Source: Rhodococcus sp. H36-A4
GTDB taxonomy: Bacteria > Actinomycetota > Actinomycetes > Mycobacteriales > Mycobacteriaceae
DNA length: 64,000 nucleotides
NCBI RefSeq assembly: GCF_027158005.1
Contig: NZ_JAPVLQ010000001.1
Span: 877,745-941,744, forward strand
Direction of reading: 5' to 3'
Shown here: positions 13,001-56,382 of the stretch, one piece after another
Position numbering within the stretch: position 1 is the first letter of the stretch
Layout: each line of letters opens with the position of its first letter
Translations under genes and position numbers: made by a program
The notes under the pieces: generated by a model
Seen by the model: the letters and a program-made list of their open reading frames with translations, nothing else
Database searches by the model: none
What the model was told of the DNA's origin: nothing

Positions 13001-16000
13001 GTGTTCGCCAGATGGGGAGATCTCGTCTACCGCTTGCGGTTCACGGTCATCGGAGTCATGGTGGCCGGGCTTCTGGGCTTCGCAGCGTACGGATTGGATC
13101 TCAACGACCATCTGAGCCAGAGCGGCTGGGACGACCCGGGATCGGAGTCGGCCCAGGCCGCTCGCCTCGCCGACGAGACCTTCGGGCGTGATCAGTCCAG
13201 CGACGTGATCGTTCTCTACACCGCGCCCGAAGGTAAAACCGTCGACGACCCGGACTTCAACGCGAAGGTCACCGACAGCCTCAACTCTCTTGTCGGCGAG
13301 CATCCCGATCAGATCTCCAAGATCAACGGAACCTACTTCAAGGTCGACAACGCCGTCAGCGCCGTGGCGCTGGCTACCCCGGATAGAACCCACGCCATCG
13401 CCAGTATCGCGATAGTCGGTGACAACGACACCGAGCTGACCAACAATTTTCAGGAGATCAAGGACGTCTTCTACGTCGACGGCGTCGACGTGCAGGTCAC
13501 CGGCCTGCAGGCGGTCGCCGGAGCCTTGCAGTCGACCATGGCCGGCGACATCCACCGGATGGAATTGCTCGCCATTCCCGCCGTCGCAGTACTGCTCTTC
13601 TTCATCTTCGGCGGCGTAGTGGCCGCAGCGCTGCCCTTGATCGTCGGTGGCCTCACGGTCGTCGGAGCCAACGGAATCGTCAAGGTCTTCACCAACTTCA
13701 CCGAAGTCAACAGCTTCGTCGCACCGGTGGTCTCTCTCGTCGGTTTGGGCTTGGCCATCGACTACGGGCTCTTCATCGTGTCCAGATTCCGCGAAGAACT
13801 CGGCGATGGCTACTCGACCACCCAAGCTGTCCGACGCACGGTCATGACTGCAGGCCGCACCGTGGTCTTCTCGGCGACGATGATCGTCGCCTCGTTGGGC
13901 GGCCTACTGCTCTTTCCGCAGGGCTTCCTCAAATCTGTCGCCTACGGCTCGATCGCCACCGTCGCACTCGCCGCACTGACAGCGATCACGATTCTGCCCG
14001 CGATGCTCGCGATCCTCGGCCCACGCGTCGACGCGCTGGGTTTGAAGTTCATGCGCAAGACCAAGTCGTCCGAAGAAATCGAGAACGGCATGTGGGGCAA
14101 GCTGACCCGCTGGGTCATGCAGAACCCGCTCAAGGTGACGATCCCGATCGTGCTCGGCCTGGTGCTGCTGACGCTCCCCGTCGGCAACATCAAATTCGGT
14201 GGAATCAACGAGACCTACCTGCCGCCCGACAACATCACCCGTGAAGCGCAGGGCGAGTTCGACGAACTGTTCCCAGGGTTGCGTACCGAACCGCTCAAGC
14301 TAATCATCTCCAATGCTCAAGGCTCATCCCTCGCGCAGATCACCAAGCAGGCCAACGAGGCCCCCGGGTTGATCGAGAAGTTCGCTCCCGACGGCGCGAG
14401 CAAAGACGGCGTCATCGTCTTCAAGGCCGGCCTCATCGACCGCAACGACTCCAAACCTGCCATCGACTACCTGCGAAGTATCGACGTGCCCGCCGGGGCC
14501 ACGGTGATGGTGACAGGAACTCCTGCGATCGAGCAGGACAGTATCGCCGCCCTCATCGACAACCTGCCGCTGATGGCACTTCTGGTCATCTTCGTGGTGA
14601 CGCTGTTGATGTTCTTGACCTTCGGATCGCTGGTGTTGCCGATCAAGGCTGTCCTCATGACGACGCTCGGGTTGGGCGCGACGATGGGCATTTTGACGTG
14701 GATCTTCATCGACGGCAACGGCGCGAGCTTCATGAACTTCACGCCTGGGCCGATCATGGCACCAGTGTTGGTGTTGATCATTTCCATCGTCTTCGGACTG
14801 TCCACCGACTACGAAGTCTTTCTCCTCTCTCGCATGGTCGAAGCCCGCGAAAAGGGAGCCAGCACCAGCGAGGCAATCCGCATCGGTACCTCGCATACCG
14901 GCCGAATCATCACCGCGGCCGCCCTGATCCTCATCGTCGTGACAGGCGCATTCGCGTTCTCCGACCTGGTGATGATGAAGTACATCGCCTACGGCATGAT
15001 CGCCGCGCTCATCATCGACGCGACGCTCATCCGCATGTTCCTCGTCCCTGCCACCATGAAACTGCTCGGCGACGACTGCTGGTGGGCACCGCAATGGATG
15101 AAGCGAATTCAGCAGCGGCTCGGCCTCGGCGAGACGATCCTCGAGGACGAGCTGATGCCGGACGACGTCCCCGAACTCGCGCTCGTCGGCGGACGCCCGG
15201 TCACCACCGTGAAGCCGCCGATGAGGCCGACGCCACAAGCCGCGGAACCTCTGACCGAACCGATCCCGATGATCGCGCCATCGAGCGCGGGTCCCGTTCG
15301 ATCGACCTATGCGGCAAAAGAAGCAGAACGGCGTTCGGCGACGGGCAAGCCTGCCAATGCACCATCCGAGGACACTCAGGCAGCCGAGATCGTTCGGGCT
15401 GCTCCCCCCGTCGTGCAGCCGGAGCCCCAGCAGCCACCAGTTCGGCAGCAACCGGTAGTCCCAGAGCGGCCAGTGGTGCGGCAGCAGCCGGTGGTCCCGG
15501 AACAGCCTGCAGTTCCTGAGCAGCCGATGGTTCGGCAGCAGCCACCCCGCACCCCGGAGCCTGTACGGGCCGCCGCACCGGACTCCCGCTCGATCGAGAG
15601 CTGGCTTGCGGATCTACGTGCGCCCACCGACTCTCCCGAAGCTCCGAAGGAGGCCACCGCGACGCCTGCCGAGCGCTCGGTGTCCAATGGCGCCCGTAAC
15701 GGCTCCTACAGCAGTAGTTCGACCGGCCGCGAGTCCGACAGCTCGCGCACCGGAACGGGTGGGAACCGCGACTACCCCCAAGGCAGCGGTTCCGGCGCAG
15801 ATCGCACGACCAACGGATCTCCGCGTAACGGCTCCCACGCCAACGGCTCCCACACCAACGGCTCCCAGACCAATGGCTCGCACACCAACGGTTCCGCCGG
15901 CAGCGGCGCCGGTGCCCGTCCAAGCGAACCGCGTACGCGCTACGACATCACGACCCGAAATGCTCCTGGCCGACGCAACGAGACCCCTAGTGATCCGCCG

Positions 16001-16186
16001 ACGCCTACCAGCCCTGAGCGCTCGGACTCGACGGCGGACACGGACACGCCGTCGCAAGGTCGACGTCGAATGAACGAACCCGTCAATCCTGATCCGTCGG
16101 AAGCCGATATCGACAGCGGACGCCACCGCGGCGGGCAGCAGGCCTTGAGCGTCAGCGAACTCCTCGCACGGGAGCGTAGGAAGTAG
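13001..16186 (+). CDS. mmpL3: MmpL3-type RND transporter of trehalose monomycolate
   Basis: A 1061-residue RND protein. The chosen start is GTG at 13001, with AAGGA 10 nt upstream and one base after the preceding stop. It has two repeats of one plus five transmembrane helices with large periplasmic loops. The proton-relay Asp-Tyr pairs of MmpL3 are visible in LAIDYGLFIVSRF and in LSTDYEVFLLSRM. The C-terminal 340 residues are a cytosolic, low-complexity tail with Pro-Gln-Val repeats and a run of NGSHT units. MmpL3 flips trehalose monomycolate to the periplasm for outer-membrane assembly and is essential in mycobacteria. A decayed partial copy lies just downstream. Confidence 0.95.
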   Translation: MFARWGDLVYRLRFTVIGVMVAGLLGFAAYGLDLNDHLSQSGWDDPGSESAQAARLADETFGRDQSSDVIVLYTAPEGKTVDDPDFNAKVTDSLNSLVGEHPDQISKINGTYFKVDNAVSAVALATPDRTHAIASIAIVGDNDTELTNNFQEIKDVFYVDGVDVQVTGLQAVAGALQSTMAGDIHRMELLAIPAVAVLLFFIFGGVVAAALPLIVGGLTVVGANGIVKVFTNFTEVNSFVAPVVSLVGLGLAIDYGLFIVSRFREELGDGYSTTQAVRRTVMTAGRTVVFSATMIVASLGGLLLFPQGFLKSVAYGSIATVALAALTAITILPAMLAILGPRVDALGLKFMRKTKSSEEIENGMWGKLTRWVMQNPLKVTIPIVLGLVLLTLPVGNIKFGGINETYLPPDNITREAQGEFDELFPGLRTEPLKLIISNAQGSSLAQITKQANEAPGLIEKFAPDGASKDGVIVFKAGLIDRNDSKPAIDYLRSIDVPAGATVMVTGTPAIEQDSIAALIDNLPLMALLVIFVVTLLMFLTFGSLVLPIKAVLMTTLGLGATMGILTWIFIDGNGASFMNFTPGPIMAPVLVLIISIVFGLSTDYEVFLLSRMVEAREKGASTSEAIRIGTSHTGRIITAAALILIVVTGAFAFSDLVMMKYIAYGMIAALIIDATLIRMFLVPATMKLLGDDCWWAPQWMKRIQQRLGLGETILEDELMPDDVPELALVGGRPVTTVKPPMRPTPQAAEPLTEPIPMIAPSSAGPVRSTYAAKEAERRSATGKPANAPSEDTQAAEIVRAAPPVVQPEPQQPPVRQQPVVPERPVVRQQPVVPEQPAVPEQPMVRQQPPRTPEPVRAAAPDSRSIESWLADLRAPTDSPEAPKEATATPAERSVSNGARNGSYSSSSTGRESDSSRTGTGGNRDYPQGSGSGADRTTNGSPRNGSHANGSHTNGSQTNGSHTNGSAGSGAGARPSEPRTRYDITTRNAPGRRNETPSDPPTPTSPERSDSTADTDTPSQGRRRMNEPVNPDPSEADIDSGRHRGGQQALSVSELLARERRK
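15445..15550 (+). repeat. Pro-Gln-Val low-complexity repeat in mmpL3
   Basis: Imperfect repeats encode alternating QQPVVPE and RPVV/QPAV units in the cytosolic tail of MmpL3. They are in frame and belong to the protein. Confidence 0.7.
15827..15895 (+). repeat. 15-bp tandem repeat (NGSHT units) in mmpL3 tail
   Basis: Four and a half near-identical 15-bp units of the type AACGGCTCCCACACC encode NGSHA, NGSHT, NGSQT, NGSHT and NGS. The unit length keeps frame, so copy number can vary without breaking the gene. Confidence 0.8.
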
Positions 16187-16234
16187 TCCTAGCGCAGTCG
16201 AATTACACCCCCCGGATCGATCTCGGTGCCGTCT

Positions 16235-17222
16235 ATGCGTAAAACCAAGCCGTCCGAGGAAATCGAGAACGGCATGTGGGGCAAGCTGACCCGCTGGGTC
16301 ATGCGTCGTCCCCTCGAGTTTGCTGTCACGATCGTGCTCGCACTACTGGCGCTTACCCAGTAGGAAGGATCGAATTCGGGCTGGTGATCTCGAACGCGCA
16401 GGGTGCGTCCCTCGGGCCGATCACCAAGCAAGCCAACGAGGCTCCCGGACTCGACGAGAAGTTCGTACCTGTCGGTGCAAGCAAAGACGGTGTCATCGTC
16501 ATCAAAGCAGGCTTCGAAGACCGCAACGATTTCCAGCCTGCGATCGATCACCTGCGCGGAATCGAAGTTCCGGACGGCGCAAGCGTCCAGATCACAGGAA
16601 CCCCTGCGACAGAACAGGACTCGATCACTGCACTGGTGGATCGACTGCCACCGCGATCCTGGTAGTCCTCATCGTGACACTGTTGATGTTCCTGACGTTC
16701 GGATTGGGCGCGACGATGGGCATTCTGTCGTGGATCTTCATCGACGGGCATGGTTCAAAGTTGTTGAACTTCACGCCGGGTCCGACCATGGCGATGATCC
16801 TGCTGCTCATCCGCGCGAGCGGTGGTCGAGGCGCGAGCGGATGGTCGAGGCGCGAGCGGATAGTCGAGGCGCGAGACAAGGGCGAAAGCGCCATCGACGC
16901 AATCCGAATCGGCACTTCACATTCCGGACGCATCATCACCGCGGCAGCACTGATATTCATCGTGGTGACAGGCTCGTTCGCATTCTCGGACCTGGTGATG
17001 ACGAAGTACATTGCCTTCGGCATGATTGTCGCGCTCATCATCGATACGACGGTGATCCGCATGTTCCTAGCCCCGGCAACCATGAAGCTTCTCGGCGACA
17101 ACTGTTGGTGCACACCGGAATGGATGAAGCGCATCCAGCGTCCAACCGGCCTCGGCGAGCCGGTCCTGGAGGATCAGAGCGTCGAGACTTCGGCTGGACA
17201 CCAATCAACAAGCGCACGTTGA
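16235..17222 (+). pseudogene. Decayed partial tandem copy of mmpL3
   Basis: The first about 80 nt nearly repeat mmpL3 from about 14050, including an exact run over 40 nt long. The frame ends in a stop at 16361-16363 (ALLALTQ*). Similarity then resumes after a deletion at the segment encoding LVISNAQGASLG, shifts frame again near 16660, and lacks the residues GSLVLPIKAVLMTTLG through a 45-nt deletion in the next segment. The helical part with SHSGRIITAAALIF through WMKRIQ remains, ending at a stop at 17222. The 988 nt correspond to about 1.13 kb of mmpL3 (14.05-15.18 kb). No single frame can make a working transporter. Confidence 0.88.
16823..16879 (+). repeat. 19-bp triplication inside the mmpL3 remnant
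   Basis: Three head-to-tail copies of TGGTCGAGGCGCGAGCGGA at 16823-16841, 16842-16860 and (diverged) 16861-16879. In intact mmpL3 the matching place has a single ATGGTCGAAGCCCGCGAAAA. The expansion shows replication slippage in sequence that is no longer selected. Confidence 0.8.
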
Positions 17223-43332: not shown

Positions 43333-43397
43333 CAAGCAAGCCGACGGTCGACTCCGGTGATGTAGGGGTATCCCCGTGGCCCCGGAGAGTGGACGCC

Positions 43398-44453
43398 ATG
43401 CCCACCCAGGCAGCAGTCGATGCCGAAAAGGCGCTCATCCACGTGCTGTGGATCAATGCCGGACTCAGCTGTGATGGAGATTCGGTGGCCTTGACGGCAG
43501 CCACCCAGCCGAGCATCGAGGAAATTGCGCTCGGCGCCCTCCCCGGACTCCCCCAGGTTGCCGTGCACTGGCCACTCATCGACTTCGAGTGCGGGCCGGA
43601 AGGTGGAGCCGACGATTTCCTCGAATGGTTCAGGAAGGCGGATCGCGGCGAGCTGGAGCCATTCGTTCTCGTCGTCGAGGGCTCGATTCCGAACGAAGCG
43701 CTGCACGACGAGGGCTATTGGTGCGGCTTCGGCAACGACCCGGATACCGGCCAACCGATCACCACAAGCGAATGGCTGGATCGACTGGCGCCGAAAGCTA
43801 CTGCGATCGTGGCCGCCGGAACCTGCGCTACGTACGGCGGGATCCATGCCATGGCGGGCAATCCGACGGGCGCCATGGGTGTCCCCGACTACCTCGGCTG
43901 GGAGTGGAAGTCGAAGGCGGACATACCCATCGTGTGTGTCCCCGGCTGCCCCGTTCAACCGGATAACCTGTCGGAGACTCTGACATACCTGCTCTACATG
44001 GCGACCGGTCAAGCACCGATGATCCCGCTCGACGACGCACTTCGTCCGCAATGGTTGTTCGGCCAAACGGTGCACGAGGGGTGCGACCGCGCCGGCTACT
44101 ACGAGCAAGGCGACTTCGCCACCGAATACGGCTCCCCGAAATGCATCGTCAAACTCGGCTGCTGGGGCCCGGTCGTGAAATGCAATGTACCCAAGCGCGG
44201 GTGGATGAACGGCATCGGCGGATGTCCCAATGTCGGCGGAATCTGCATCGGATGCACGATGCCCGGTTTCCCCGACAAATTCATGCCGTTCATGGACGAA
44301 CCCCCGGGCGGCAAGCTCTCCACCACTGCGTCGGGAATGTATGGGTCGGTGATTCGCAGTCTGCGACACATCACCGGCAAGACGGTCGACGAGGAGCCGA
44401 AATGGCGGCAGCCCGGCCGCACACTCCAGACCGGTGCCACCCGTACGTGGTGA
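43398..44453 (+). CDS. hhyS: Group 1h/5 [NiFe]-hydrogenase small subunit
   Basis: A 351-residue small subunit; ATG at 43398, with GGAG 10 nt upstream, is favoured over GTG at 43389. No Tat signal or C-terminal anchor is present, so it faces the cytosol. The proximal-cluster motif CxxC is C25-D-G-D28, so Asp replaces a Cys, as known for the 3Cys-1Asp cluster of the oxygen-tolerant group 5 enzyme of Ralstonia eutropha; the other ligands lie in GTCATYG and PGCPVQ. The distal His-Cys3 (VHEGC onward) and a four-Cys medial cluster follow. It relays electrons from the NiFe site. It precedes hhyL by 52 nt. Confidence 0.96.
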   Translation: MPTQAAVDAEKALIHVLWINAGLSCDGDSVALTAATQPSIEEIALGALPGLPQVAVHWPLIDFECGPEGGADDFLEWFRKADRGELEPFVLVVEGSIPNEALHDEGYWCGFGNDPDTGQPITTSEWLDRLAPKATAIVAAGTCATYGGIHAMAGNPTGAMGVPDYLGWEWKSKADIPIVCVPGCPVQPDNLSETLTYLLYMATGQAPMIPLDDALRPQWLFGQTVHEGCDRAGYYEQGDFATEYGSPKCIVKLGCWGPVVKCNVPKRGWMNGIGGCPNVGGICIGCTMPGFPDKFMPFMDEPPGGKLSTTASGMYGSVIRSLRHITGKTVDEEPKWRQPGRTLQTGATRTW

Positions 44454-44505: not shown

Positions 44506-46302
44506 ATGACTGCCACCATCCCCAACCCGTCCCACAAGGCAACCGACAAAGACGGTTTGGTGGAGATGGCATGGGACCCCATCACTCGAATAGTCGGAAG
44601 CCTCGGTATCTACACGAAGATCGACTTCAAGAACAAACAGGTGGTCGAGTGCCACAGTACGTCGTCCATCTTCCGGGGTTACTCCATCTTCATGAAGGGG
44701 AAAGATCCGCGCGACGCCCACTTCATCACCAGCCGCATCTGTGGAATTTGCGGAGACAATCACGCGACGTGCTCGTGCTACGCGCAGAACATGGCGTACG
44801 GAGTGAAACCCCCGCACCTGGGTGAATGGATCGTCAACCTCGGCGAAGCTGCAGAATACATGTTCGACCACAACATCTTTCAAGAAAACTTGGTAGGCGT
44901 CGACTACTGCGAAAGGATGGTGTCGGAGACCAATCCGAGTGTGCTGGCCAAGGCCGAGAACACCCGGGCTCCGCACGAGGGCGAACACGGTTATCGCACC
45001 ATCGCGGACATCATGCGCTCGCTCAATCCGTTCACCGGTGAGTTCTATCGCGAGGCGCTCGTTGTCAGCCGCTCCACCCGGGAAATGTTCTGTCTCATGG
45101 AGGGTCGACATGTTCATCCCTCGACGCTCTATCCCGGGGGCGTCGGAACAGTAGCGACAATTCAGCTGATGACCGACTACATCACCAGACTGATGCGCTA
45201 CATCGAATTCATGAAGAAGGTCGTACCCATGCACGACGACCTTTTCGACTTCTTCTATGAAGCGCTCCCGGGGTACGAGAAGGTCGGACTTCGACGCACG
45301 TTGCTCGGTTGCTGGGGTTCGTTCCAGGATCCCGAAGTATGCAACTTCGATTACAAGGACATGACCAGTTGGGGACGCGCTATGTTCGTTACCCCTGGCA
45401 TCGTCGTGGACGGCAAGCAGATCACCACCGACCTGGTCGACATCAATCTCGGTATCCGCATTCTGCTCGGGTCGTCCTATTACGAAGACTGGACCGACCA
45501 GGAGATGTTCGTAACGAACGATCCGTTGGGCAATCCTGTCGACCGAAGGCACCCGTGGAATCAGCACACCAATCCCAAGCCCCAGAAGCGCGACATGGAC
45601 GACAAATACAGCTGGGTGATGTCACCTCGTTGGTTCGACGGCAAAGAGCATCTGGCACTCGACACCGGCGGCGGGCCGCTTGCGCGGTTGTGGAACACCG
45701 CACTTGCCGGGTTGGTGGACATCGGATACGTCAAGTCGACCGGCCAGAGCGTGCAGATCAATCTCCCCAAGACAGCGCTGAAGGGCCCGGTCAGCTTCGA
45801 ATGGAGAATCCCGGAGCACGGTAGCAACACCATCGAGCGCAATCGTGCGCGTACCTACTTCCAGGCCTACGCTGCGGCAGCGGCGCTGCACTTCGCAGAG
45901 AAGGCTCTCGTGGAAATCCGCGCGGGCCGCACCAAGACGTGGGAGAAGTTCGAGGTTCCCGAAGAGGGTATCGGATGCGGATTCACCGAAGCGGTGCGCG
46001 GAGTTCTCTCGCACCACATGGTTATTCGCGACGGCAAGATCGCGAACTACCACCCCTACCCACCCACTCCGTGGAACGCCAATCCCCGCGATACGTACGG
46101 CACCCCGGGTCCATACGAAGACGCCGTACAGGGTCAGCCGATCTTCGAGGAGAACGATCGCGACAACTTCAAGGGCATCGACATCATGCGCACCGTGCGC
46201 AGTTTCGATCCTTGCCTGCCATGTGGCGTGCACATGTACCTCGGCGACGGCAAGACCCTGGAGAAGCTGCACTCACCTACCCAATCCGTCACCGGTGAAT
46301 GA
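44506..46302 (+). CDS. hhyL: Group 1h/5 [NiFe]-hydrogenase large subunit
   Basis: A 598-residue large subunit holding the NiFe(CN)2CO site. The L1 motif RICGICGDNH (Cys79, Cys82, His86) and the L2 motif DPCLPCGVH (Cys570, Cys573, His576) supply the four active-site cysteines. A 22-residue tail after His576 is the expected target of the maturation protease encoded downstream. Length and motifs match actinobacterial high-affinity hydrogenases that oxidise atmospheric H2. The stop overlaps the next start by ATGA (46299-46302). The AGAAGAGG at 44492 serves as ribosome-binding site. Confidence 0.97.
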   Translation: MTATIPNPSHKATDKDGLVEMAWDPITRIVGSLGIYTKIDFKNKQVVECHSTSSIFRGYSIFMKGKDPRDAHFITSRICGICGDNHATCSCYAQNMAYGVKPPHLGEWIVNLGEAAEYMFDHNIFQENLVGVDYCERMVSETNPSVLAKAENTRAPHEGEHGYRTIADIMRSLNPFTGEFYREALVVSRSTREMFCLMEGRHVHPSTLYPGGVGTVATIQLMTDYITRLMRYIEFMKKVVPMHDDLFDFFYEALPGYEKVGLRRTLLGCWGSFQDPEVCNFDYKDMTSWGRAMFVTPGIVVDGKQITTDLVDINLGIRILLGSSYYEDWTDQEMFVTNDPLGNPVDRRHPWNQHTNPKPQKRDMDDKYSWVMSPRWFDGKEHLALDTGGGPLARLWNTALAGLVDIGYVKSTGQSVQINLPKTALKGPVSFEWRIPEHGSNTIERNRARTYFQAYAAAAALHFAEKALVEIRAGRTKTWEKFEVPEEGIGCGFTEAVRGVLSHHMVIRDGKIANYHPYPPTPWNANPRDTYGTPGPYEDAVQGQPIFEENDRDNFKGIDIMRTVRSFDPCLPCGVHMYLGDGKTLEKLHSPTQSVTGE

Positions 46303-47261
46303 CGGAGGCGCGCATGGACACCGATGCGGTGAGGGGTGGTGCACCGGACGCATGGCGTAGCGCTGGCGAGCGTATCGACGCTCTCGTCGACGGCCTGTCC
46401 ACCGGTGGAGTTCTCGCGCGCGAACGCGCCGAACAACTCGTCCGAGAAGTAGCCGACCTCTACGGCGAGGCACTCGCCCGCATCCTGGCCGCGGCGGGGC
46501 CGCAGCAGAGCACGCGCATGGTGGAGGACGACCTGATCGCCAGCCTCCTGCTGGTGCACGGGTTGCATCCGGACGACGTCGAGACTCGTGTTCGGACTGC
46601 ACTTGTCGGCGTGCGCCCCTACCTCGGTTCCCACGGCGGCGACGTCGAGTTGATCGGCGTGCAGGACGGCGTCGTGACCCTGCGACTGCTCGGTAGCTGC
46701 AAGACGTGCCCTTCATCTTCGGTGACACTGGAACTGGCGGTCACCGATGCCGTGCAGGCGGCTGCTCCGGAAACGACGTCCATCGAGGTCCGCACCACGG
46801 ACCCAGCTTCCTTGGGCAGCGGTTCGTCCGGGCCATCGTCGTCCGGGTCGTTGTTCTCGAGCGAGTCGCTGATGTCGAAGGTTCATGCACATACCGCGGT
46901 GGAAGGCGCCTGGTCGGCGGTACCCGAACTGGCCGACCTCGTAGACGGTGAGCTCGGTGGATTCACCGTCGCAGGCAGCGCGCTCGTCGCCGCGCGAATC
47001 GGCGACACCTGGTACGCCTATCTCGACAGGTGCCCTCGTTGCGAGGGCAGCTTCGCGGGCGCTGCGATGGCGCGCCGAGCCGGTAGGCCCGTCGGGGATG
47101 CTGTACTGCGATGCCCCACGTGCCGTGCGCATTACGATGTGCGAGGGGCCGGAGCCGGGCTCGACGTTCCCGGACTACACCTCGATCCGTTGCCCGTGCT
47201 CGTCAAAGATGGCGTGTTGTCGGTGGCGATGCCCAGCGCGCGCGTGGGGGCACGACCATGA
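46299..47261 (+). CDS. hhyE: NifU-domain / Rieske-like fusion protein (HhyE position)
   Basis: A 320-residue protein coupled to hhyL. Residues about 85-165 are a NifU C-terminal domain with the cluster motif LLGSCKTCPSSS; a Ser-Gly-rich linker follows (about 168-190). The last 110 residues look like a Rieske fold, but its metal motifs read CPRC and CPTC-RAHYD, with Cys at the places of both Rieske histidines. In M. smegmatis the gene following hhyL, hhyE, encodes an iron-sulfur protein needed for H2 oxidation (recalled). A role in electron transfer or cluster delivery is inferred. The symbol is given by position. Confidence 0.82.
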   Translation: MTEARMDTDAVRGGAPDAWRSAGERIDALVDGLSTGGVLARERAEQLVREVADLYGEALARILAAAGPQQSTRMVEDDLIASLLLVHGLHPDDVETRVRTALVGVRPYLGSHGGDVELIGVQDGVVTLRLLGSCKTCPSSSVTLELAVTDAVQAAAPETTSIEVRTTDPASLGSGSSGPSSSGSLFSSESLMSKVHAHTAVEGAWSAVPELADLVDGELGGFTVAGSALVAARIGDTWYAYLDRCPRCEGSFAGAAMARRAGRPVGDAVLRCPTCRAHYDVRGAGAGLDVPGLHLDPLPVLVKDGVLSVAMPSARVGARP

Positions 47262-47896
47262 CCGGACCGCTGGGCGCACTCAATCGCATTACGCGCACGA
47301 AGCCGACGGCCCCGGTCGGCGAACGCTGCGAGATGTGCGCCGAACCGATCGGCGACGAACACCAGCACGTGGTCAACACACAAGCGCGTCAACTGATGTG
47401 CGTGTGCCGGGGATGCTATCTACTGTTCACCGACGCTAGTGCCGAGTTGCGATATCGCGCTGTTCCGGATCGATACGTGTCCTTTCCGGAGTTCGAACTG
47501 GGTCCTGGCCAATGGGAGGAGCTCGAGATACCGGTCGGCCTTGCCTTCTTCTTTCGCAATTCGACGCTCGACCGAACAGTCGCGTTCTACCCTGGTCCCG
47601 CTGGTGCCACCGAATCGGAATTGCCACTCGAGGCCTGGGACAACGTGCTCGCAGCGAACCCGCAGTTGGCGTTGCTCACTGACGATGTCGAGGCGCTTCT
47701 GATTCGCACGAATGGTGGTATCACCTGCCATATCGTTCCGATCGACGCCTGTTATCAGTTGGTCGGTACGTTGCGCAGACTGTGGCGCGGATTCGACGGC
47801 GGCCAGGACGCGCACCGCGAGATCGAGAACTTTTTCGCGGCCGTGAACGCTCGCAGTCGCCCGGCTCAGGCGGTCGTCTCGGACGCACCATCATGA
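47258..47896 (+). CDS. DUF5947-family protein, hydrogenase-associated
   Basis: A 212-residue soluble protein starting in ATGA at the preceding stop. Near the N-terminus the spacing CEMC (about 24-27), a His pair, and C-VC-RGC (about 48-54) suggest a zinc or iron site. The rest is globular with alternating strands and ends in the helical LRRLWRGFDGGQDAHREIENFF. DUF5947 proteins are found in actinobacterial group 1h hydrogenase operons; none has a known role as far as I recall. It is coupled to the next gene by ATGA. Confidence 0.8.
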   Translation: MTGPLGALNRITRTKPTAPVGERCEMCAEPIGDEHQHVVNTQARQLMCVCRGCYLLFTDASAELRYRAVPDRYVSFPEFELGPGQWEELEIPVGLAFFFRNSTLDRTVAFYPGPAGATESELPLEAWDNVLAANPQLALLTDDVEALLIRTNGGITCHIVPIDACYQLVGTLRRLWRGFDGGQDAHREIENFFAAVNARSRPAQAVVSDAPS

Positions 47897-48564
47897 CGCA
47901 GCTGTCGTTCTCCGTGATCGACATCGTCCCCGAAGAATATGCGGTGGCGCCCAATCTGACTGTGCAGCTGAGGATCGAGGAAAGCACGGGCGTCGAGATT
48001 CACGCACTGGCACTGCGATGCCAAGTACGTATCGAGCCGCATCGGCGACGGTATACCGATGCCGAGGCTGCCGGAATGGTCGACCTGTTCGGTGGGCGCG
48101 AGCGCTGGGCGTCCACGTTGCGTTCGTTCTTGTGGATGCAGTGCAGCACGGTGGTACAGGGCTTTTCCGGTTCGTGTGACGTGGACCTCCCGATGCTGTG
48201 CACCTACGACTTCGATGTGGCGTCGTCGAAGTATCTGCATGCACTCGAGGAGGAGCGGGATGGTCACGATGCGAGCATTCCGCTCGAAATGCTCTTCAGC
48301 GGAACTGTTTTCACGAAAGGCTCGAACGGGTTCGGTGTGCAACAGATCCCATGGGACAGGGAATGTAGGTTCGACCTTCCGGTGCGGGCATGGCGACGGT
48401 TGGTAGACATGCATTTTCCCAACACCGGTTGGATTCGGCTGGACAGAGATACGCTCTACGCCCTGTCGGCCTATCGATCGGAGCGCGGAATGACTGGCCT
48501 CGACGACGCTGTCGTCGAACTGGTGAGGTCTGCGCACATCGGGATCGATGAGGTCACCGAATGA
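47893..48564 (+). CDS. DUF6084-family protein, hydrogenase-associated
   Basis: A 223-residue soluble protein without signal or membrane helix, starting in ATGA. It begins with several beta strands (LSFSVIDIVPEEY and VQLRIEEST), has a Trp- and Phe-rich middle (WASTLRSFLWMQCSTVV), and ends with a strand-helix region around FPNTGWIRLDRDTLYAL. No metal motif is obvious. It is named by a family that occurs with group 1h hydrogenases; function unknown. An accessory or structural role is inferred from strict operon coupling. Confidence 0.8.
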   Translation: MTQLSFSVIDIVPEEYAVAPNLTVQLRIEESTGVEIHALALRCQVRIEPHRRRYTDAEAAGMVDLFGGRERWASTLRSFLWMQCSTVVQGFSGSCDVDLPMLCTYDFDVASSKYLHALEEERDGHDASIPLEMLFSGTVFTKGSNGFGVQQIPWDRECRFDLPVRAWRRLVDMHFPNTGWIRLDRDTLYALSAYRSERGMTGLDDAVVELVRSAHIGIDEVTE

Positions 48565-49931
48565 CCGCGCGAAGCGATCTCGAGATCGCTCGAGCCGTCG
48601 CGGATGCTGTTCTCTACGAGGGGTACCTGCTCTATCCCTACCGGGCGAGCTCGCAGAAGAACCAGTCCCGTTGGCAGTTCGGTGTACTCGGCCCGATCGG
48701 TGCGGCGGCAGCGGGAATGGGTGAGGAATCGACGATGTCCACCCAGTGCGTCGTACGAGGCGACGGATCACTCGTGGTCACTCTACGATTTTTGCACTTG
48801 CAGGTACGCAGCATCGAGATGCGTTCCTCGGACGCGACGTTCGTCGAGGTGCCCGAGATGACGGTCGGATCGATTAGGTGGCTCAGTTGGGACGAAGCCA
48901 TCTCACAAGAGATAACACTCGATCGATACTCTCTCAGCGATCTGGTAGAGCCGCGGTATGTTCCGATCGACGTGCCCGGTGGGCGTGACATCGAATTCAT
49001 CGAGGACGATGAGGGTTCGGTGGTGGGGCGGATCGCGCGCACCCGATACCCACTGAAAGGCCGAATCTCATTGCAGTGCAACCGTAGCGATGCAGGTTCC
49101 GCTTCGGAGTTCGCGAAGGTGCAGATTACTGTCGAGAACGACCATCGGGAGGAGGAGCTGGACAGCGCCGGTGCCGTTCGGTGCTCCTTCATCGGCGCGC
49201 ACCTGCTTCTCACGTGCGAGAATGCGGAGTTCGTCTCGCTCCTCGAGCCGCCCGACAACGCGGTAGACATCGCCGCGTCGTGCACGCAGAGTCGATGTTT
49301 TCCGGTGCTGTCCGGTGCCCTGGGCGCCACCGACGTGATACTCGCGTCCCCGATCATCCTGTACGACTATCCCGAGATCGCAACGCAAAGCGACGGGGCA
49401 TTGTTCGATTCCACCGAGATCGACGAGATTCTGACATTGCGAATTCTGACGCTGACCGACGAGGAAAAGGCTCAGGCCCGTGCCACCGATCCGCTTGCCG
49501 CACAGATCATCGACCGGTGCGAGTCGATGTCACCGGAGTCATTGCAGCAATTACACGGCGTGCTCCGTGATCAGGATGGGCTGGTTCCCGAACTGCCAGA
49601 GGGTGTTCCGTGGTGGGATCCCGAAGCCGATACCGCTGTACGACCGGATGTCGACGCGGTACTCGTGAACGGCGTCCGGGTGTCGAAGGGCTGCCTCGTC
49701 CGGTTGCGGCCCTCACGCAGAGCCGACGCGCAGGATCTCTTCTCGGCAGGTCGCACCGCTCGGGTCGCAACGGTGCACGCGGATGTCGACGGCGACATTC
49801 ATGTGGGCGTCACGTTGCTCGATGATCCGGCGGCAGATCTGCACGACTGGTACGGCCGGTACCTCTATTTCGCGCCGGACGAAATCGAGCCGCTCGAAGC
49901 GCAGGGCAATCGAAGGGAGAGTCAGTCATGA
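48561..49931 (+). CDS. Conserved hypothetical protein of the hydrogenase operon
   Basis: A 456-residue soluble protein coupled by ATGA on both sides. The first helix and strand (RAVADAVLYEGYLLYPYRASSQKNQSRWQFGVLGP) are very aromatic. A long beta-rich middle, with two separated Cys near CTQSRC, is followed by a helical stretch around ARATDPLAAQIIDRCESM. The end (VNGVRVSKGCLVRLRPS to RYLYFAPDEIEPL) resembles a small barrel. No known catalytic motif is recognised. It is the largest unassigned gene of the island. Assembly, scaffolding or electron-partner roles are all possible. Confidence 0.75.
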   Translation: MTARSDLEIARAVADAVLYEGYLLYPYRASSQKNQSRWQFGVLGPIGAAAAGMGEESTMSTQCVVRGDGSLVVTLRFLHLQVRSIEMRSSDATFVEVPEMTVGSIRWLSWDEAISQEITLDRYSLSDLVEPRYVPIDVPGGRDIEFIEDDEGSVVGRIARTRYPLKGRISLQCNRSDAGSASEFAKVQITVENDHREEELDSAGAVRCSFIGAHLLLTCENAEFVSLLEPPDNAVDIAASCTQSRCFPVLSGALGATDVILASPIILYDYPEIATQSDGALFDSTEIDEILTLRILTLTDEEKAQARATDPLAAQIIDRCESMSPESLQQLHGVLRDQDGLVPELPEGVPWWDPEADTAVRPDVDAVLVNGVRVSKGCLVRLRPSRRADAQDLFSAGRTARVATVHADVDGDIHVGVTLLDDPAADLHDWYGRYLYFAPDEIEPLEAQGNRRESQS

Positions 49932-50047
49932 ACGTGGTGGGAACGATAGCGACCGCTCTGGTGGGTGTCCTGGTGCTGGCCGCAGCACTAGTCGGTGTTC
50001 GGTCGATCCCGGACATCAAACGGTATCTACGGATGCGTCAGATGTGA
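49928..50047 (+). CDS. 39-residue single-pass membrane peptide (DUF6893-like)
   Basis: A short frame starting in ATGA at the previous stop and ending in GTGA shared with the protease gene. It encodes 39 residues: a hydrophobic helix of about 23 (IATALVGVLVLAAALVGV) followed by RSIPDIKRYLRMRQM, a basic amphipathic end that would lie in the cytosol. It resembles DUF6893 small proteins. Coupling on both sides argues that it is translated. It is the only membrane-spanning product between the hydrogenase subunits and hypE, so it may tether the enzyme to the membrane (inference). Confidence 0.75.
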   Translation: MNVVGTIATALVGVLVLAAALVGVRSIPDIKRYLRMRQM

Positions 50048-50556
50048 GCGCCCCACAGATCCTCGTCGCAGGCATCGGCAACATCTTTCTCGGCGACGAC
50101 GGCTTCGGTCCCGAAGTGCTGCGGAGGATGGGCGGTCGCACGCTACCTCCCGGGGTGCGCGCGGTCGACTACGGCATCCGAGGTATGCACTTGTCCTACG
50201 ACCTGCTCGGTAGTGCCGATATTGCAGCCCCGCAGGAGTTGATCATCGTCGACGCAGTGCCCGATCGAGGCAGTCCGGGCACACTTCGCGCCTTCGAAGT
50301 CACCGCCGAGGATCTCGACGGCGGCGCGGTGGACCCGCACAGCATGGATCCAGGTTCGGTTCTGATCTCACTCGGAGCGCTCGGCGGCGAACTACCTCGG
50401 ACAATCGTAGTCGGCTGCCAAGTCTTCTCGGTCGAAGATGGGATCGGATTGTCTCCCCCGCTCCTTGCTGTCGTCGACGACGCAGTAGAGCTGGTACTCG
50501 ACACCGTCGACTTGCTCGTCACAACTGCCGAATCTTCGGCCGAAGCGAGGGGTTGA
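50044..50556 (+). CDS. hyaD: Hydrogenase maturation protease (HyaD/HupD-like)
   Basis: A 170-residue peptidase starting at the GTG of GTGA. The N-terminal GIGNIFLGDDGFGPEV is the family signature, with the nickel-binding acidic residue in LGDDG; a second acidic residue in IIVDAVPDRG and a conserved His in DPHSMDP complete the set. It cuts the C-terminal extension of the large subunit after nickel has been inserted; HhyL has a 22-residue tail. It is followed by hypC, whose GTG start lies 5 nt beyond its stop. Confidence 0.92.
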   Translation: MSAPQILVAGIGNIFLGDDGFGPEVLRRMGGRTLPPGVRAVDYGIRGMHLSYDLLGSADIAAPQELIIVDAVPDRGSPGTLRAFEVTAEDLDGGAVDPHSMDPGSVLISLGALGGELPRTIVVGCQVFSVEDGIGLSPPLLAVVDDAVELVLDTVDLLVTTAESSAEARG

Positions 50557-50561
50557 TCGCG

Positions 50562-50813
50562 GTGTGCTTGGGGATCCCCGGTCGGGTGGTGCGAATGCTG
50601 GAGGGTTACGGCAACCAGCTTGCGCTCGTCGATGTCGTAGGCGAACTCCGCAAGGTCAACATCGGGATGATGCCCGAGGACACTTTCACTGCGGGCGACT
50701 GGGTAATCATCCATATGGGCTTCGCGGTGGAACGCACCGACGCAGCAGGCGCCGAGAAAGCAATGACTGGACTCGAATTGATGGGCCGAGCGCGGGAGGA
50801 TCCATCGCTATGA
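50562..50813 (+). CDS. hypC: Hydrogenase chaperone HypC (first copy)
   Basis: An 83-residue HypC. The start is set at GTG 50562 because it puts the essential cysteine at position 2 (MCLGIPGRV); the TTG at 50553, which would overlap the protease stop, would bury it. GAGGGG lies 10 nt upstream. HypC binds HypD and the large subunit while Fe(CN)2CO is made. A conserved IHMGFAV element is present. It is coupled to hypF by ATGA (50810-50813). A second hypC follows hypF. Confidence 0.92.
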   Translation: MCLGIPGRVVRMLEGYGNQLALVDVVGELRKVNIGMMPEDTFTAGDWVIIHMGFAVERTDAAGAEKAMTGLELMGRAREDPSL

Positions 50814-53105: not shown

Positions 53106-53429
53106 ATGTGCCTGGCTGTACCCGGAAAGATCATGAGCTTGGAGGATCGCGACGGCACGCTGATGGCGGAAGTCGACTTCGGTGGACTTCGCAAGGAGGT
53201 GTGCTTGCAGTACATTCCGGACGCGATCGCCGGTGAGTACGTAGTGGTACACGTCGGTTTCGCGATTCAACGGCTCGACGAGGTGTCCGCATTGCAGACG
53301 CTCGCGGAGTTCGAACGGATGAACATCCTCGACGAGGAGTTCGGCGACGGATTCGCACGCGCGGCCCGGCAGGCAGGCAACGAGCCGATAGCCGATAGCA
53401 CCGATACCAGCAAGGGAGTTCGATCATGA
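53106..53429 (+). CDS. hypC: Hydrogenase chaperone HypC (second copy)
   Basis: A 107-residue HypC paralogue. ATG at 53106 gives the essential Cys2 (MCLAVPGKI) and has AAGGAGC 8 nt upstream. It differs from the first copy in having 24 more residues, mostly a charged C-terminal tail ([15 protein letters not shown] onward). Two copies in one operon suggest one works with HypD and the other accompanies the large subunit, or each serves a different step; this is inference. It is coupled to hypD by ATGA. Confidence 0.93.
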
Positions 53430-55623: not shown

Positions 55624-56382
55624 GTGAAGACAAGGAATCTCGACAGCAGGCAGAGCGGTCCTGTCCTGTTCAATCGGTACGCCTATCCACCGAACGAACT
55701 CGGATACTGCGGGCCGGATGGTTCGGAGGACCTTCTCGGGCATCTCAGTTCCGGCGTCGGTGACATGAATCTGCGCGAGCGTGCCCGCAGTTTCGACGGC
55801 GCCTGGCCGTATCTGGAAACGTTGGCCTCCGCGCTGGGCGACGGCGATCCCCTTGATGTCGAGGTGGTGCACGCGTATTGGGTGGGTAGTGCTCTCACCT
55901 CTGCGGTCGACCCGAATGCTCTGATGGCGCGGCTGCGTATCGACTTCGCCGGGCAAAACGGCGGTGTGGTGCACGAGCTCGACGCCGGCGCCGACTGCAT
56001 GGCTCATCACAGCTTTCACGTCTTCGCCGTCTACCCGTGGCTTCGGCTACTGCCGCGCGTGGCCGACGTACCGCTCACAGTGCTTCAACAATGCCGCATC
56101 CGTTGGGGCACCGTCATCTCGGTAGAAGGCGAACACGTGCATCTACTCTCGGAGCCACTACGGTTTCGGGGCGGCACACTTTCCCTCGCCGAACCGATAT
56201 CCGAGAAAGCCCGGTGGAGTTCCGCGGGCCGCTCACTGCTTGCTGAGCCCAAGGTGGGCGATGTGGTGTCGCTGCATTGGGATTGGGTGTGCGACCGGCT
56301 CGACATCACTGAGGTGGCGCACCTGCGTCGGTGCACCACCGCCTCGATCAGCGTCGCAAACCGCGCATTGCAGTCACTGTGA
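55624..56382 (+). CDS. DUF6390-family protein, last gene of hydrogenase island
   Basis: A 252-residue soluble protein that starts at GTG. The N-terminal RYAYPPNELGYCGPDG and the middle MAHHSFHVFAVYPWLRLL, with a His-His pair, are the most distinctive parts; the C-terminal half is beta-rich. Relatives, to my knowledge, occur with group 1h hydrogenases and their function is unknown. It is 13 nt after hypE, on the same transcript, and 18 nt from the stop of the convergent acyl-CoA synthetase. A maturation or nickel-related role is inferred from the place after hypE. Confidence 0.8.
   Translation: MKTRNLDSRQSGPVLFNRYAYPPNELGYCGPDGSEDLLGHLSSGVGDMNLRERARSFDGAWPYLETLASALGDGDPLDVEVVHAYWVGSALTSAVDPNALMARLRIDFAGQNGGVVHELDAGADCMAHHSFHVFAVYPWLRLLPRVADVPLTVLQQCRIRWGTVISVEGEHVHLLSEPLRFRGGTLSLAEPISEKARWSSAGRSLLAEPKVGDVVSLHWDWVCDRLDITEVAHLRRCTTASISVANRALQSL

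Follow-up and report, generated by a model that had tools for sequence, protein, structure and literature searches.

The primary sink for hydrogen in the atmosphere consists of H2-scavenging aerobic soil bacteria, and PMC6883350, the source of this background, describes as an open question how the hydrogenase Hhy passes electrons to the respiratory chain. Here we analyze a 64,000-nucleotide stretch of Rhodococcus sp. H36-A4 (contig NZ_JAPVLQ010000001.1, positions 877,745 to 941,744 of the forward strand; hereafter the window), in which four genes lie between the hhyE-type gene and the maturation protease gene of a group 1h [NiFe] hydrogenase operon. They encode a DUF5947 protein, a DUF6084 protein, a 456-residue protein that we call F456, and a DUF6893 membrane micropeptide (Table 1). 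In our sample the set is a nearly fixed component of group 1h clusters, and we tentatively propose that it couples the enzyme to the membrane.

This cluster is the only [NiFe] hydrogenase matched by a Pfam model in the genome. Its large subunit lies near known group 1h enzymes, the closest PDB entry being that of the group 1h enzyme HofG of Cupriavidus necator, and its open reading frame (ORF) carries both motifs of the group (worded as in PMC5364354), L1 as TSRICGICGDNH and L2 as SFDPCLPCGVH, which by sequence places the locus in group 1h. The hhyE-type protein matches Pfam NifU at 2e-19, while its Rieske match (0.0055) falls below the Rieske cut-off. The four ORFs between hhyE and the protease gene contain no internal stops, and the Pfam scores exceed the gathering cut-offs for DUF5947 (256.9 versus 25 bits), DUF6084 (297.1 versus 25) and DUF6893 (58.4 versus 24.6); judged from sequence, all four are real genes.

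Table 1. Features of the hydrogenase locus, in window coordinates
Feature	Coordinates	Strand	Length	Remarks
hhyS, hydrogenase small subunit	43389..44453	+	354 aa	Pfam NiFe_hyd_SSU_C, Oxidored_q6
hhyL, group 1h large subunit	44506..46302	+	598 aa	Top PDB match 5aa5 HofG, E 0; Pfam NiFeSe_Hases
hhyE-type protein	46299..47261	+	320 aa	NifU domain and C-terminal region with two CxxC (CPRC, CPTC)
DUF5947 protein	47258..47896	+	212 aa	Pfam 1.1e-76
DUF5947 putative metal site	47327..47416	+		C24-x2-C27, H35-x-H37, C48-x-C50-x2-C53; 46 aligned sequences
DUF6084 protein	47893..48564	+	223 aa	Pfam 8.6e-89
F456 protein	48561..49931	+	456 aa	Without Pfam family; model predicted local distance difference test score (pLDDT) 84.6
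F456 domain related to DrmA N-terminal region	48729..49379	+		Residues 57-273
F456 SH3-like domain	49656..49898	+		Residues 366-446
DUF6893 membrane micropeptide	49928..50047	+	39 aa	Pfam 7e-16
Conserved C-terminal tail of micropeptide	50000..50044	+		Residues 25-39; D29, R32, Y33 and terminal M39 invariant
Hydrogenase maturation protease	50044..50556	+		GTG start within GTGA; TIGR00072 1.3e-31

The distribution of the set was assessed in 104 loci (4 on plasmids, 80 from genome contigs and 20 from further genomes). A sequence-only reading of the window had allowed that the genes might often be missing from complete group 1h loci, and in this sample this is not so. Among the 91 loci that extend at least 6.5 kb past hhyL, DUF5947 and F456 are present in all 91 and DUF6084 in 89; two of the F456 genes lie upstream of hhyS, and L122, L134 and L135 have partial F456 matches. 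A DUF6893-type peptide, sought with a model built from these peptides, occurs in 97 of the 99 clusters that span DUF6084, F456, the protease and 400 further bases. The order NifU, DUF5947, DUF6084, F456, protease is identical on the Cupriavidus necator plasmid pHG1 and on a Methylocystis parvus plasmid.

Among 198 genomes of Actinomycetota, HhyL has matches at E 1e-50 in 32, and in 25 of these the identity is at least 66% (close HhyL); DUF5947 and F456 are each carried by 23 genomes and DUF6084 by 22. Only one of the 173 genomes without close HhyL has any of the three larger proteins, and there the contig ends inside DUF5947 (G189, locus L151). Conversely, DUF5947 and F456 are missing from three of the 25: in G042 (L124) low-complexity sequence replaces DUF5947 and the F456 position falls past the contig end, in G184 the HhyL match covers residues 16-327 only, and G107 holds a cluster remnant (L153). 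DUF6084 is missing from G184, G107 and the variants G128 and G171. L124 is one of the 13 shorter loci and has NifU and DUF6084 with no DUF5947 between them; a single ORF (L124:8633-10324) there joins NifU, RD/DG-rich repeats and DUF6084 in that order, in a fragmented assembly and at a contig end.

The three larger proteins and the micropeptide are all absent from ten regions, some of them cut short, around hydrogenases of 35-44% identity in seven genomes. Since seven of these ten regions have a NifU match, the set, in this sample, accompanies group 1h and not NifU-partnered hydrogenases generally. The Streptomyces-type variant clusters (L132, L133 and S. cattleyicolor L003) retain NifU, DUF5947 and an F456 gene placed upstream of hhyS, and no DUF6084 was found in these three. 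The gene order in L003:4520-13938 is protease, hypA, hypB, F456, a hemerythrin-like gene, hhyS, hhyL, NifU and DUF5947; beyond the cluster, at 15139-16962, lies an ORF resembling cytochrome oxidase subunit I (hypA, hypB, hemerythrin and oxidase were named by eye from the sequence). G150 bears an Hhy remnant (L147:8781-9939) consisting of a 49-residue HhyS match, a 42-residue F456 match, an intact micropeptide and the protease, as if the block between the HhyS and F456 pieces had been lost together.

Each of the four ORFs begins inside the ATGA of the preceding gene and the protease gene begins within a GTGA, so the ORF coordinates bear out the earlier description of coupled genes of 212, 223, 456 and 39 residues. 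In the 104 loci, overlaps of 4 or 1 bp join HhyE to DUF5947 in 85 of 99 cases, DUF5947 to DUF6084 in 77 of 96 and DUF6084 to F456 in 91 of 94, and are rarer further on (29/77 from F456 to DUF6893, 9/77 from DUF6893 to the protease). The same reading took this coupling as a sign of fixed stoichiometry and of a physical complex, a conclusion that we do not retain: the hyp maturation genes of the operon are equally coupled (hypC and hypF at 50810-50813, the second hypC and hypD at 53426-53429), so that an overlap does not distinguish subunits from maturation factors. The overlaps that run on into the hyp genes, and the placement of the set between the structural genes and protease/hypC, fit a close rival to membrane coupling, which we rank second and consider possible, if on balance doubtful. 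The three larger proteins would then be dedicated maturation factors, acting in iron-sulfur assembly or insertion or in protection of the active site in air, and the peptide a regulator or a membrane assembly site. The HoxO, HoxQ, HoxR, HoxT and HoxV proteins of the C. necator membrane-bound hydrogenase provide the analogy.

The micropeptide has a constant layout, with a single hydrophobic membrane helix and, after it, a basic tail that closes with the pattern D-x-x-R-Y-x(5)-M. The four residues marked in Table 1 are invariant in all 80 peptides of exactly 39 codons, among which the uncorrected ratio of nonsynonymous to synonymous polymorphism (pN/pS) is 0.36 for the tail versus 0.71 for the helix; by these sequence measures the tail is under purifying selection. 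Its positive charge, together with the positive-inside rule, by which positively charged segments lie on the cytoplasmic side, suggests that the tail faces the cytoplasm. In the 97 clusters, the peptide lies between F456 and the protease in 79, after the protease in 16 and at both sites in one, and in the remaining one it follows the protease while a second copy lies on the opposite strand. It was not found in L134 and L135, the other two of the 99, nor in any of the three clusters without DUF6084, and the latter absence hints that DUF6084 and the peptide may work together.

Distant clusters first appeared to be peptide-free; there, the peptide follows the protease. On C. necator pHG1 (L001:13999-14100), a 33-residue ORF with a membrane helix, a DUF6893-like tail and AGGAGG just upstream lies between the protease and hypF. 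A 32-residue ORF of the same design lies between the protease and hypC on the M. parvus plasmid (L002:9744-9842), and five Streptomycetaceae plasmids have a peptide of about 32-38 residues after the protease. As far as sequence similarity can tell, the micropeptide is conserved from Proteobacteria to Actinomycetota. It is not in the gene tables of five annotated records (L001, L002, L004, L159, L162), even that of C. necator H16, in a collection whose tables are self-declared incomplete. The Pfam DUF6893 model matches 19 of the 198 genomes, of which 16 have HhyL at 66% or more and the other three are G150 (the remnant), G189 (the broken contig) and G195, where no cassette was found; a few additional copies are located away from hhy.

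The DUF5947 model is confident (pLDDT 92.3), with no clear structural relative among the PDB fold matches. Seven residues, C24, C27, H35, H37, C48, C50 and C53, are invariant in the alignment and form a CxxC/HxH/CxCxxC pattern. Rieske proteins have the motif C-x-H ... C-x2-H and the rubredoxin fold has two CxxC knuckles; the DUF5947 motif is unlike that of Rieske proteins, and rubredoxin is absent from the fold matches, which does not exclude a rubredoxin. The site would suit maturation factors, as would the NifU-type neighbor. It could also suit an idea that we judge improbable, namely that electrons pass directly to DUF5947 (PHG067/MSMEG_2717) as their acceptor, with the other proteins merely stabilizing it; PMC6883350, with reference to Schafer 2013, mentions that this role was suggested for PHG067.

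F456 belongs to no Pfam or NCBIfam family, although at least 8000 homologues are found at E <= 0.001. It aligns to DrmA, the helicase of the antiviral DISARM system, over profile positions 77-294 of 1018 only, a region for which the DISARM authors report no homologues in PMC9142583; the same paper calls the N-terminal half of DrmA a structural chassis. We rejected F456 as a DrmA helicase: the superfamily 2 (SF2) RecA modules are lacking, the match covers an N-terminal domain only and ends before the helicase part, and no Pfam helicase is found. F456 is also much shorter than DrmA and, unlike it, is located in a hydrogenase operon. By analogy with the chassis, F456 could plausibly act as a scaffold. 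The matches to its SH3-like domain also include beta chains of nitrile hydratase, a likeness that counts for maturation.

The set has known counterparts, and the word undescribed in the sequence-only reading was too strong: PMC4377017 already lists PHG066-069 of C. necator as four ORFs with no known function, and PMC6883350 names PHG067/MSMEG_2717 as a possible electron acceptor. C. necator H16 pHG1 shares the order small subunit, large subunit, NifU, DUF5947, DUF6084, F456, protease over PHG064-070; with hofK as PHG064, hofG as PHG065 and the protease as PHG070 (PMC4377017), this order would make PHG067-069 the three larger proteins. The C. necator cluster differs in its shorter NifU protein (192 aa) and in the position of its micropeptide after the protease. 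Mycobacterium smegmatis Hhy likewise has HhySL and a NifU/CxxC protein, with MSMEG_2717 the PHG067 homologue by the description in PMC6883350. In alphaproteobacterial methanotrophs, four coding sequences of unknown function adjoin hhyL according to PMC12319191. Titles and abstract openings yielded one paper on DUF5947, DUF6084 or DUF6893, concerning an antibiotic cluster, and the literature covered on Hhy structures, locus tags and small membrane proteins, many subscription papers lying outside this scope, held nothing recognizable as the peptide or as the link between F456 and DrmA. New here are the restriction to group 1h, the conservation of the micropeptide, the DrmA and SH3 relations of F456 and the invariant site of DUF5947.

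We favor the reading, tentatively and as slightly short of an even chance, that the four genes form a group 1h-specific coupling module, which would hold HhySL and HhyE together and tether them to the membrane. The soluble HhySL dimer would have to deliver its electrons to the quinone pool of the membrane by a route that lacks a cytochrome b. F456 may be the scaffold on which HhySL and HhyE meet the DUF5947 protein with its putative metal site; HhyE, and perhaps DUF5947, would relay electrons; and the micropeptide would sit in the membrane, its basic cytoplasmic tail docking the assembly, probably via DUF6084. The contacts, the electron path and the docking are all part of this proposal, in which scaffold, relay and tether rank first. 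The presence and order of the genes, their restriction to group 1h, the selection on the tail and the likeness of F456 to DrmA support it, as does the need for HhyE in H2 uptake. For the role of HhyE we follow PMC6883350, in which loss of either HhyE or HucE in M. smegmatis reduces H2 uptake and loss of both abolishes it, and HhyE reportedly runs with HhySL on native gels; the paper also leaves a maturation role open for HhyE, which the rival reading can claim.

The group 2a enzyme Huc is a cytosolic hydrogenase that an accessory scaffold keeps close to the membrane (PMC10017518). This scaffold, HucM, is a single protein with a coiled-coil stalk that carries menaquinone, whereas the models of F456 and DUF5947 show no coiled coil. 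A membrane coupling of group 1h's own, distinct from both a cytochrome b and the HucM stalk, in which a peptide of about 32-39 residues docks an F456/DUF6084 scaffold with HhySL, HhyE and DUF5947, is possible, though we would not yet count on it. The near-fixed, clade-marking gene set, the conserved peptide missing from the gene tables checked and the DISARM-related, scaffold-like protein offer handles on Hhy coupling.

Methylacidiphilum fumariolicum SolV bears on several of these readings. It is reported to be without hhyE (PMC6688271), and PMC7174314 describes an enzyme purified active as HhyS and HhyL, an operon with two other hypothetical membrane proteins, and a genome that lacks homologues of the hypothetical proteins encoded in the Pyrinomonas Hyd-1h operon, presumably the proteins studied here. 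If that identity holds, activity without the set speaks against maturation as an obligatory role. We count the active HhySL and the other membrane proteins in favor of the coupling module. Maturation is further disfavored by Thermomicrobium roseum, in which PMC6776052 reports up-regulation of hhaABC, which we infer to be the genes studied here, by 5.5-fold, against 12.6-fold for the structural genes and 3.1-fold for a separate maturation operon.

SolV likewise weighs against the genes being a factor for high H2 affinity. Of the candidates named in the sequence-only reading (scaffold, quinone-side electron partner, affinity factor), the scaffold is plausible for F456 and the affinity factor fits badly. 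In its favor, the hydrogenases that the genes accompany form a clade known to take up H2 from the atmosphere. C. necator, however, carries the whole set, yet the reported Michaelis constant (Km) of its enzyme is 3.6 µM, whereas SolV, apparently without the set, has an apparent Km of 140 nM for the membrane-associated enzyme (PMC7174314); we therefore hold a direct role in affinity to be very improbable. An indirect effect through membrane coupling is possible, because purification deprives the SolV enzyme of its high affinity (PMC7174314).

Elsewhere in the operon, the window has two hypC-type genes (50562-50813 and about 53106-53429, the second named by eye), and a 252-residue ORF (55624-56382) directly follows hypE in the same direction.
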